From Vibrio coralliirubri (lineage in GTDB: Bacteria > Pseudomonadota > Gammaproteobacteria > Enterobacterales > Vibrionaceae), in contig NZ_AP025470.1 in assembly GCF_024347375.1 (NCBI RefSeq), forward strand, positions 1,240,001 to 1,304,000: DNA of 64,000 nt, given 5' to 3'. Below the pieces are notes generated by a model. It had not been told where the DNA came from, did no database searches, and saw only the letters and a list, made by a program, of their open reading frames with translations. Position numbers and translations under genes: made by a program. Below, in pieces: positions 42,115 through 45,540 of the stretch. Within the stretch, counting starts at the first letter, position 1. Each line of letters starts with the position of its first letter.

Positions 42115-42153
42115 TAAAAAACCGCGTAACTCTCAGAGTTATGCGGCTTTTTT
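42115..42153. terminator. Bidirectional terminator downstream of the formate dehydrogenase gene
   Basis: CCGCGTAACTC pairs with GAGTTATGCGG (42122-42147, one G-U) between converging genes. A5 and T6 runs flank it. Confidence 0.85.
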
Positions 42154-42213: not shown

Positions 42214-43194
42214 TTAGTTTGGAACAATTTCGCTGCCGTGAACACCAAATTGCTTAGCAGCATAGGCAACGCGCTCTGCTGGTTTTGGGTATTCAGCTGG
42301 TGTACCCAGGTTTTCAATATGATGCAAGCGAGGTAATAAACCTGCGCCGTTTGCAATCTGTATTGCTAATCCAGGACGAGCGTTTAGCTCCAGTACCATT
42401 GGGCCTTCTTCTTGGTCTAAAACCATGTCCGTACCCATGTAGCCAAGGCCTGTCATTTCCCAAGCACTTGATGCAAGTGTCAGCAGCTTTTCCCAATGCG
42501 GCACTTGTAGTAGCGCCAACTCTTTCCCCGTATCTGGGTGGTGAGTCACTGGGTGGTCAAATTGAACCGCACGAACAGCTTTACCCGTAGCGATACAAAT
42601 ACCTACACCCACAGCACCTTGGTGCAAGTTAGCTTTACCATCAGAAGCTGAAGTCGATAGACGCATCATCGCCATTACAGGGTAGCCCTTGAATACAATG
42701 ATTCGTACATCTGGTACACCCTCGTAACTGAAGCCGTCAAAACACTCGTCAAACTTGATGAGGTTTTCAACTACAGCAACATCGTTCTTACCACCGAGTG
42801 AGAAAAGACCCGCGAGAGCGTTACTGATGTGGCGCTCTACGTCTTCTTCATTGATAGTCGAACCTGATGGCTTGGTGTAAACGCCGTCCTTGTGAGAAGT
42901 CACAACAAGGATACCTTTACCACCACTGCCTTGAGCTGGCTTGATTACGAAACCCGGCCACTCTTTTACCATCTTGTGGATTGTTTTTACTTCAGCTTGA
43001 TGACCAATCACGCCAATCAGTTTTGGTACAGTAGCACCAGCCTGTTCAGCAATGATTTTAGTCTTAAGCTTGTCATCAACGAGTGGATACTTGGAACGAT
43101 CATTGTAGCGACCAATATAACTATGGTTACGCTTGTTCATTCCCATTATGCCTTTGTCTTTCAACCTAAACGGTGAAGTAAACTGATCAAACAT
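42214..43194 (-). CDS. RimK-like ATP-grasp ligase (alpha-L-glutamate ligase-related)
   Basis: A 326-residue ATP-grasp protein of the RimK-related group. ATP-binding residues are in FVIKPAQGSGGKGILVV (82-98) and metal/ATP residues in VLELNARPG (267-275), with PDVRIIVFKG (161-170) between. RimK-type enzymes join glutamate or other amino acids to proteins or metabolites; here the substrate is unknown. It is the last gene of a three-gene operon, four bases after the 7TM gene. A ligase beside a retropepsin-like protease suggests a build-and-cut peptide pathway, which is inference. Confidence 0.85.
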   Translation of the reverse strand: MFDQFTSPFRLKDKGIMGMNKRNHSYIGRYNDRSKYPLVDDKLKTKIIAEQAGATVPKLIGVIGHQAEVKTIHKMVKEWPGFVIKPAQGSGGKGILVVTSHKDGVYTKPSGSTINEEDVERHISNALAGLFSLGGKNDVAVVENLIKFDECFDGFSYEGVPDVRIIVFKGYPVMAMMRLSTSASDGKANLHQGAVGVGICIATGKAVRAVQFDHPVTHHPDTGKELALLQVPHWEKLLTLASSAWEMTGLGYMGTDMVLDQEEGPMVLELNARPGLAIQIANGAGLLPRLHHIENLGTPAEYPKPAERVAYAAKQFGVHGSEIVPN

Positions 43195-43197
43195 AAC

Positions 43198-44703
43198 TTA
43201 GTCCTCCGCTAGCGGTTTAAAGCGACGAAGCTCGGTTAGACGGTATCCTGTGTAGTTACCTAGTAGCAAGATGGTCGCTAGAATAACAAGTTGTAAACCA
43301 ATAAAGTTAAACGTTAAGTGCTGAATGAACGGGTTAGTCATGCCTAAGTAAACAAGAACTGCAGTGAATAGAGAGCCACCACCTTGCAGCATTACTTCTT
43401 TCGCGCCTTCTTCTTCCCATAGGATAGACATACGTTCGATAGTCCAAGATAGGATAATCATTGGGAAGAATGTAATGGATAGACCTTCAGTCAGACCCAC
43501 TTTAAACGCGACCACAGTAAACACAGAGATAATCATGATTACCGTGATGATTACGGCGGATATCCTGGCTACCAAGAGCAAGTTGAGTTTGGACAAGTAA
43601 CTTCGAATAATCAGACCCGTACCTACAATAAGTAGGAAGCCAACAATACCCGTTACCAGTTGTGTTTGTACAAAGGCTACCGCAATCAGTACTGGCATGA
43701 ACGTACCAGACGTTTTCAAACCGATGATGACACGTAGGAACACAACAATCAGAGCACCGATAGGAATCAGCATGATGGTTTTAAACATCGCTTGCTCTTC
43801 TAGCGGTAGGCTGTGAATTGAAAGGTTTAATAGTTGATCAGCAGAGACTTTACTATTGGTTGCTTCCGTTGGTGAAACCTCTTGAGCAATCATAGAGAAG
43901 TGAACTTTACTATTCTGACCGCCAACAACATCCAGTAGAGAAACGTTTGATTCGTCCCAGATGAGTAGGTTTGGTTGAACTTGTTGTTCGCTTGATTCAG
44001 GAGAGAACAGAATCCACTCGTCGTTATCCCAGATCTGAATCATGTTTTGAATCGACTGACGACGACGACCATCTTCTAGCTCGATAACACCGACCACTTT
44101 GTTGTGTATTTTCGCCGCTGAAAGTAGCTTGTGTGTCGCTTCCACTTTGGTCATGTTGTTCAGAATCAGCGCTGAGTTTTGGCTGTCTGGATCATTAAGT
44201 GTTTTGATGAGCTCACGGGTAAAAGTGATATTGTCTGCAGAACGTTTTGTCGCTCTATCAATCAATGCAAGAGAAGCCGCTTCTTCAGGGCCGTCGAAGC
44301 TTGGTTGCGAGACTTCACCTTCTGGTGCGATAGCATCAACTTTTGCTTGGTTGTCGACTAGGAATTGTGTTTTGTAGTAGATGGTTTGAGGGCCATCTGC
44401 GTATCGAATAGACCACTCTGCGCGGCGACCTGATTCGGTATTCAAGTAAGAGATACCGTAACCCGGCGATGAAGCCGATTCGCCGATAAGTGTGTAGTTA
44501 GACTGAGTATGAGGAGCCGCTAAGGAAACTTTTGCTTCTTTGCCTACTGCGTTGAACTCGATGCGAGCTTCAACGTCCCAAACCTGTCTGGTTTCCCCTG
44601 GAGTCCAAGGTACACCGTAGGTCGTATGTCTGAACATACTCAGTGTTATACCTGCCACGATAAGCAGGAATATAGAGATATAAAATGGAATTCTTGACGT
44701 CAT
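43198..44703 (-). CDS. Inactive-transglutaminase domain fused to a 7TM membrane region
   Basis: A 501-residue inner-membrane protein. One N-terminal membrane segment (about 6-24) precedes a periplasmic transglutaminase-like domain (about 30-300). The C-terminal ~190 residues have several closely spaced membrane helices (from FKTIMLIPIGALIVVFLRVII to LTFNFIGLQLVILATILLLGNYTGYRL), fitting the family described as an inactive transglutaminase fused to seven transmembrane helices. The Cys-His-Asp catalytic triad is not recognisable. It starts 17 bases after the lipoprotein gene and is followed four bases later by the ligase gene. Confidence 0.85.
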   Translation of the reverse strand: MTSRIPFYISIFLLIVAGITLSMFRHTTYGVPWTPGETRQVWDVEARIEFNAVGKEAKVSLAAPHTQSNYTLIGESASSPGYGISYLNTESGRRAEWSIRYADGPQTIYYKTQFLVDNQAKVDAIAPEGEVSQPSFDGPEEAASLALIDRATKRSADNITFTRELIKTLNDPDSQNSALILNNMTKVEATHKLLSAAKIHNKVVGVIELEDGRRRQSIQNMIQIWDNDEWILFSPESSEQQVQPNLLIWDESNVSLLDVVGGQNSKVHFSMIAQEVSPTEATNSKVSADQLLNLSIHSLPLEEQAMFKTIMLIPIGALIVVFLRVIIGLKTSGTFMPVLIAVAFVQTQLVTGIVGFLLIVGTGLIIRSYLSKLNLLLVARISAVIITVIMIISVFTVVAFKVGLTEGLSITFFPMIILSWTIERMSILWEEEGAKEVMLQGGGSLFTAVLVYLGMTNPFIQHLTFNFIGLQLVILATILLLGNYTGYRLTELRRFKPLAED

Positions 44704-44720
44704 AGCTTACCCTACTATTG

Positions 44721-45461
44721 TTATTTAACTTCCGTTTGTACGTACTTTTTACTTACATCTACTAGCGCTATGTCTTTGATAAATTCGCGCCCTAGTAATA
44801 CAGGGTGACTCATTTGAGAGCGATCCGCCAATGTAAATTGCGCTTTTTCATGGATTTTTCCAACTTTCACCCATAATTCGATCACAGCTCGACGTTCTGT
44901 TTGATCATTGGTTGATTGACGGATTTTTACATAACGTACAACAGGCGCTTCAATCCATTTCTGGTCTTCTTCAGCTTGGGCTTTGTCGTCTAGGTGAAAT
45001 TTAACCCAGTTCTTGCCGTTACGTTCGAATTCTTTGATATCGACAGCGTTTAAAGAAGAGGTGGTTGCGCCAGTATCAACACGAGCATCAAAACTTTGGG
45101 AGATCGAGTCGATAGACACTTTTTCGATGCCGCCAAGGATAGTCGGTTGTGATGTAGGAGCGATAGGAGCAACGGCAACAGCGACAGGTTCTTCTTCCTC
45201 TAGCTCTTCGATAACCTTGTGTTCCATGTTCGTTAGATGGGTATCTAATTGACTAGAAAGGGTAGTAATTTCGTCTTCTAAGCTTTCAATATAATCACTT
45301 TGATTGCTTAGTTGCAGTTCAAGATTTTGAACCTTATTTGCGATGTTTGTCTCTGAGCGGGAAATAGCGTCGAGAGTTTCTTGGTGATAGGTAGCACCAT
45401 TTGTAAGAGTACAGCCAGAGAGCAAACCAACCGCCACAATAGGCGATAATCGCTTAAACAT
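44721..45461 (-). CDS. Lipoprotein with retropepsin-like aspartic protease domain
   Basis: A 246-residue lipoprotein. The lipobox is LLSGC with Cys17 and the start at 45461 has AAAGG seven bases upstream. A coiled coil (about 35-85) and an acidic linker (EELEEEEPVAVAVAP) precede a retropepsin-like domain beginning near 112. The active motif is VDTGATTSSLNA with Asp129; this family is also named ATP-dependent zinc protease. It should work at the periplasmic face of a membrane. It heads the operon with the 7TM and ATP-grasp genes. Substrate unknown. Confidence 0.86.
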   Translation of the reverse strand: MFKRLSPIVAVGLLSGCTLTNGATYHQETLDAISRSETNIANKVQNLELQLSNQSDYIESLEDEITTLSSQLDTHLTNMEHKVIEELEEEEPVAVAVAPIAPTSQPTILGGIEKVSIDSISQSFDARVDTGATTSSLNAVDIKEFERNGKNWVKFHLDDKAQAEEDQKWIEAPVVRYVKIRQSTNDQTERRAVIELWVKVGKIHEKAQFTLADRSQMSHPVLLGREFIKDIALVDVSKKYVQTEVK

Positions 45462-45514: not shown

Positions 45515-45540
45515 ACAAAAAAGGATGCGTGAAGCATCCT
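45515..45540 (-). terminator. Terminator downstream of cmoB
   Basis: On the minus strand AGGATGC pairs with GCATCCT (45522-45528 with 45534-45540), followed by six T. Confidence 0.8.

Follow-up and report, generated by a model that had tools for sequence, protein, structure and literature searches.

The window analyzed here is a stretch of 64,000 nucleotides of Vibrio coralliirubri (NCBI RefSeq assembly GCF_024347375.1, contig NZ_AP025470.1, positions 1,240,001 to 1,304,000), whose genome is assembled in two large contigs of 3.68 and 2.06 Mb. Its minus strand carries, from 45461 down to 42214, the genes of a lipoprotein retropepsin (rloA), of a membrane protein with a dead transglutaminase domain (rloB) and of an ATP-grasp ligase (rloC), with 17 bases between the first two and 3 bases between the last two; the single, tightly packed unit proposed in an earlier reading of these letters (hereafter, the original prediction) is indeed there. 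The three genes are adjacent, on one strand and in the order rloA-rloB-rloC, as in the rloABC operon described in 2025 in mBio for Pseudomonas aeruginosa (PMC12239564). The locus is almost certainly the rloABC operon of a Vibrio, and it adds a member from this genus to a known, recently described system (Table 1).

P. aeruginosa cells that have lost all three secreted RloA proteases do not grow on salt-free medium, and loss of rloB, rloC or both rescues growth fully and the other defects partially; this role in hypoosmotic tolerance, with the rescue, is described for P. aeruginosa only. RloA cleaves stretches of 8 or 10 glutamates and leaves those of up to 6 intact, and the substrate of the system was left open by the authors (PMC12239564). 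The view of the original prediction that substrate and purpose of such triads are largely unknown is therefore out of date, now that the operon has been named and both phenotypes and solved proteases are available for it (PMC12239564). VxrB of V. cholerae is also said to control the orthologous rlo genes (PMC12239564); inspection by eye of 68 aligned Vibrio upstream stretches, that of the window among them, showed no shared regulator site. Furthermore, according to two other articles, suppressors of rugose colonies hit PA1766, PA1767 and PA1768, annotated as ATP-grasp, membrane and exported proteins (PMC7314104) and taken here to be the same rlo operon, and a Shewanella gene for an inactive transglutaminase alters vesicle output (PMC12096838).

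Table 1. Features of the rloABC locus and their positions in the window
Feature	Position	Strand	Basis
rloA-like gene, lipoprotein retropepsin, 246 aa from ATG	44721..45461	-	PF05618, residues 108-244
Codon of lipid-attachment Cys17 in LSGC lipobox	45411..45413	-	pattern match, no signal-peptide predictor
Probable coiled-coil stalk of RloA, residues 24-95	45177..45392	-	weak SKA1 match, E 0.00066, below cut-off
Codon of catalytic Asp129, DTG motif	45075..45077	-	residue alignment
rloB-like gene, dead transglutaminase domain and seven-transmembrane (7TM) domain, 501 aa	43198..44703	-	Pfam, NCBIfam
Periplasmic transglutaminase-fold domain of RloB, residues 36-277, no triad	43873..44598	-	
7TM domain of RloB, residues 255-498	43210..43941	-	PF14402
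rloC-like gene, ATP-grasp ligase, 326 aa	42214..43194	-	Pfam, NCBIfam, residues
Terminator-like hairpin between cmoB and rloA	45522..45540	-	7-pair stem, T run

The three proteins and their relatives

The product of rloA matches PF05618 with an E of 7.7e-49 (Pfam); its length is counted from the ATG at 45461, the list of open reading frames placing the start at a TTG at 45518. The lipid-anchored protease with Asp129 that the original prediction described is confirmed by a lipobox, found by pattern match in 78 of 80 Vibrio RloA proteins (the 80 best of 301 relatives, each titled as Vibrio or Vibrionales), and by a DTG motif whose catalytic Asp is kept in 79/79 Vibrio and 65/65 other aligned RloA proteins. 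The residues contacting octaglutamate in the published model (K46, R92, R114 and R137) correspond here to R127, R176, R191 and R214; the three Arg places are kept in 76, 78 and 78 of the 79 Vibrio sequences and in 59, 65 and 64 of the 65 others, and that of K46 holds R or K in 78/79 and 64/65, respectively. One Vibrio RloA and L197 (too short) are outside these counts, and L172, among the 65 others, is probably RimB. With its export signal, DTG site and contact residues, the protein has what is expected of RloA in an rloABC operon. Lipoproteins are generally sorted to the outer membrane unless Asp follows the lipid cysteine, and RloA is probably located there because a non-Asp residue follows its Cys17. 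A run EELEEEE before the protease domain was considered as a self-cut site, that is, as a linker serving as the protein's own substrate, and dropped, since beyond the nearest relatives most acidic runs have a length of 1 or 2 (every eighth of the 80 Vibrio rows inspected).

The rloB product matches PF14400 (E 6.7e-55) and PF14402 (E 3.3e-109). In the columns of the Cys-His-Asp triad it holds a gap, Q and S, so that it is not an active transglutaminase, as the original prediction had proposed; an inactive transglutaminase domain fused to a 7TM domain is what defines RloB in the rloABC operon. The transglutaminase-fold domains of 3isr (a putative cysteine protease) and TgpA are among the nearest known counterparts, from which the window RloB differs in having no triad and an extra 7TM domain.

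As for rloC, its product matches PF14397 (E 4.6e-100) and passes the NCBIfam model TIGR02291 (alpha-L-glutamate ligase-like) with 555 bits against a cut-off of 314, again as in an rloABC operon. Residues K85, D162, R164, D256, E269 and N271, common to RimK and presumably with the usual ATP-grasp roles, are kept in at least 97% of 76 sequences (four of the 80 rows of the wider set described below hold no usable RloC). The locus resembles the RimK-RimB pair, which also joins an ATP-grasp ligase to a retropepsin of the same families with shared catalytic residues, and differs from it in several respects: RloC matches the RimK domain only weakly and in part, reaches 47.6 of 143.4 bits for rimK_fam and has no match to Rimk_N, which the host genome's own RimK does match; RloA has a lipobox and is exported; and a membrane protein is added. 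A separate rimK-rimB pair lies elsewhere in the host genome (L003:548-1914, G000:C2). In another genome, G114 (L126:1926-5452), a rimK-rimB pair stands back to back with rloA-rloB, an arrangement that would fit the published idea of rlo arising from rim.

Against the P. aeruginosa operon, likeness extends to the gene order, the three kinds of domain and the catalytic Asp and contact residues of RloA; the difference is that the Vibrio RloA has a lipobox and a long stalk, the word lipoprotein being absent from the text of PMC12239564. The top NCBIfam models for the first two proteins are RloA3 (115.5 of 210 bits) and RloB (NF052267; 350 of 900), both below the curated cut-offs, as are RloA2 (95.8 of 250) and RloA (89.7 of 280); we therefore file the locus under this kind of operon and not under those named proteins. 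The closest RloB among named loci is 99% identical (e.g., in Vibrio crassostreae). In several Vibrio records RloB is called gonadoliberin III, apparently an annotation error that has spread.

The unit sits between an upstream gene matching PF08003, which we take to be cmoB, and the convergent gene of a molybdopterin oxidoreductase of large size. The hairpin upstream of rloA (45540-45522), on the same strand as the unit, sets rloABC apart from cmoB; a strong terminator-like hairpin of 11 pairs (42122-42146, plus strand) lies between the oxidoreductase gene and rloC.

The host genome holds further retropepsins. A secreted protein of 627 residues (L004:1480-3363; G000:C1:2925567-2927447, minus strand) has four retropepsin repeats, with DTG only in repeats 1 and 4; four repeats were found in 8/8 examined relatives, and both DTG motifs are invariant in 26/26. 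At E up to 1e-60 this type occurs in 10/17 genomes of the genus and in 2/64 other genomes of the family. It may be a single-chain retropepsin, and no pairing of the four repeats is claimed given a predicted template modeling score (pTM) of 0.48; no such protein is described in the sections consulted of the P. aeruginosa account (PMC12239564). Another lipoprotein retropepsin, whose linker is rich in proline and glutamate, is encoded at L002:1489-2175 (G000:C2).

Conservation of the operon and its sister arrangements

The order A-B-C holds in 80/80 of the Vibrio set. Beyond it, a class sample of 143 genomes and a phylum sample of 398 genomes were covered: PF14402 is matched in 26/143 genomes of the former (25 over the cut-off) and in 65 cases in the latter, and TIGR02291 passes its cut-off in 20/143, 19 of them beside a PF14402 match. 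In G114 the TIGR02291 match is on a different contig and rloB ends its own. The wider set comprises 80 rows, i.e., the window and 79 loci outside the genus drawn from both samples; nine further genomes of the same genus are not in it, L138 (G077) was dropped, its match below the cut-off being read as another membrane protein, and L134 was left out of alignment A3 on account of one unread base. RloA stands beside RloB, on the same strand, in 66/80 rows and RloC in 77/80, so that the co-occurrence in other genomes on which the original prediction depended is found both within and outside Vibrio. As for the exceptions, L126 lacks RloC because the contig ends; L136 (5146-6768) and L137 (5050-6675) hold RloB relatives with the triad partly lost and no adjacent RloC, and in L137 the retropepsin gene (RloA) adjoins RloB on the opposite strand. 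In L130 and L198 RloB is dead and RloA is not adjacent; the genome of L198 (G328) holds a secreted RloA elsewhere.

The transglutaminase domain is dead in 72/80 rows, counting two that lack it, and the Cys-His-Asp triad is kept in the remaining eight (L133, L134, L135 and L167-L171). Adjacent RloA is found in 0/8 of these triad rows versus 66 of the other 72 (Fisher P 1e-7). In 8/8 the locus runs on into the gene of a TPR protein, followed in the 7/7 rows that can be judged (the contig of L169 ends first) by a protein of about 395 residues, which its own sequence and weak matches below cut-offs mark as a likely outer-membrane barrel. PF05618 is missing from 5/8 of the triad genomes, two of which are only 88% complete, and the triad genomes G101 and G232 have one match each, of the RimB type without a signal peptide. 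In a second arrangement (2/80 rows, L172 and L173) RloB has no transglutaminase domain, RloC comes next and rloB is directly preceded by a barrel-like gene; the two barrel-like genes are 54% identical to each other and give weak family matches. In a tree of the 76 RloC sequences and three RimK-like proteins, the triad loci group in a single clade (100/98) next to the canonical loci and the two domain-less rows fall outside, the tool warning of long branches at the root. These two sister arrangements are the new part of this analysis, the canonical operon being already known; neither triad-bearing nor barrel-linked rloBC loci were found in print, in a literature covered mostly without subscription journals and preprints.

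Possible kinship of the RloB membrane domain with CapC

A CapC-like origin of the RloB membrane domain, an idea that predated the CapC profile search, is weakly suggested by sequence likeness. The motif G-x4-G-x3-P of RloB recurs with the same spacing in 9/10 CapC copies from 5 genomes. Among 54 hand-picked genomes carrying RloB, the CapC profile gave 41 weak matches, four of them on RloB in one register, and passed its cut-off in 0/54; the four matches are not independent, since a single chance likeness recurs among RloB orthologues and two of these four genomes belong to the same family (f151). A weak likeness (E 2.7) was also seen for L136. PF14102 (CapC/PgsC) has no match in the window. 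With hhalign, RloB against the best CapC set (5 genomes) reached at most 3.3%, the positive control of CapC copy against copy giving 66%, and against thinner sets (2 genomes) at most 7.6%, partly in another register. CapC was also not among the 25 families listed of 30 for 79 RloB proteins, the RloB profile found nothing in CapC loci, a sequence search of the PDB (E up to 1) gave no relative of CapC, and viral contigs scanned with RloB and CapC patterns yielded no confirmed relative.

The operon would work like PgsBCA/CapBCA inasmuch as a glutamate polymer is there, too, served by a ligase together with a small membrane protein and a hydrolase on the outside. Membership is not claimed: the rlo ligase is an ATP-grasp enzyme, whereas PgsB belongs to another ligase family. 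Five genomes of family f173 (L221-L225 and L227-L231) encode a protein of about 1,080 residues with two tandem CapC domains, one copy being cut by a contig end; five other genomes of this family hold a triad-bearing rloB.

Possible product and function of the RloB-RloC core

What the canonical operon and its sister arrangements share is the core of 7TM domain and ligase. It goes with barrel-like genes in two lineages and, in a third, with a periplasmic protease acting on glutamate runs, from which we infer that it would be a unit for synthesis and export of a glutamate polymer. In such a system, RloC would use ATP to link glutamates on the cytoplasmic side of RloB, whose membrane domain may pass the chain through the inner membrane; the dead transglutaminase-fold domain would bind or guide it in the periplasm, and RloA, lipid-anchored on its stalk and probably in the outer membrane, would cut it, preventing pile-up. 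Trimming may have passed from RloB's own triad, kept in the sister loci, to RloA. We give this whole mechanism, in which a glutamate chain is made inside, passed through RloB and trimmed outside, about an even chance. That RloB and RloC are needed for the harm caused by loss of RloA in P. aeruginosa is counted in its favor (PMC12239564). The cycle of cutter, membrane platform and builder sketched in the original prediction stands in part: a builder inside and a cutter outside fit these genetics (PMC12239564) and the kept residues, and the cycle itself is conjecture.

Several points weigh against the proposed mechanism. No product has been seen, and that it would be a glutamate polymer is a deduction. 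The predicted model of the 7TM domain is poor (predicted local distance difference test, pLDDT, mostly <52), which makes transport by RloB a guess, and the barrels are identified from weak matches that all stay below the cut-offs. Since all triad loci fall into one clade, the exchange of the triad for RloA counts as a single event, which the Fisher P makes look stronger than it is. In G120 (L130) a dead RloB occurs with only a RimB-type retropepsin and no secreted RloA. G033 holds both kinds of locus, triad-bearing and canonical rlo, besides a RimB-type retropepsin, in a mixed assembly (86% complete, 6% contamination).

The original prediction saw in the triad a peptide-tagging system, the comparative genomics behind it being probably that of Iyer et al. 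in 2009. In such a scheme RloC would add Glu to a specific protein or lipid, RloB would dock or export it, and RloA would remove the tag in the periplasm, as RimB does in the cytoplasm for the ribosomal protein RpsF. The resemblance of RloC and RloA to RimK and RimB speaks for it, as does the cutting of glutamate-tailed RpsF by RloA in vitro, and the alternative is raised in the published account itself (PMC12239564). The authors' search of the P. aeruginosa proteome gave no exported protein with such a Glu run, and a relaxed candidate was left uncut (PMC12239564). The sister loci, triad-bearing or domain-less, fit polymer export better, and a free or exported polymer is at least as likely as tagging because they carry barrel-like genes. 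We consider tagging rather unlikely.

The state of the transglutaminase domain also bears on a sensing role, in which it would bind a periplasmic peptide and signal through the 7TM domain to RloC, no polymer crossing the membrane. An enzyme domain dead in 72/80 rows, as in many binding domains, and the poor 7TM model would agree with it; the triad kept in 8/80 rows, precisely those with export-like partners, and the like effects of rloB loss and rloC loss in the P. aeruginosa account (PMC12239564) argue the other way and make a sensor improbable. Still less probable, to the point of being very doubtful, is that the genes merely share a promoter and RloA acts mainly on another substrate, such as wall peptide: the two further secreted retropepsin genes of the host genome, away from rloBC, and the wall-like defects of the P. 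aeruginosa mutants would suit it, and against it stand a gene order kept across families and the rescue of the protease mutant by rloB or rloC loss (PMC12239564).

Returning to polymer synthesis and export, a broader formulation can be put forward as a tentative possibility. RloB-RloC may be a widespread Gram-negative core for synthesis and export of poly-alpha-glutamate, with a CapC-like membrane domain and an ATP-grasp ligase, in which trimming is done by a transglutaminase-fold cysteine enzyme that forms part of RloB (in export loci where TPR and outer-membrane barrel proteins are partners) or by a separate RloA where that domain has died; the Vibrio locus would be of the second form. The rlo genes bear on salt-free growth, cell shape, biofilm and antibiotic tolerance in P. 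aeruginosa (PMC12239564). The sister loci suggest that a glutamate polymer is handled across both membranes, and they make the question of the RloB-RloC product testable.

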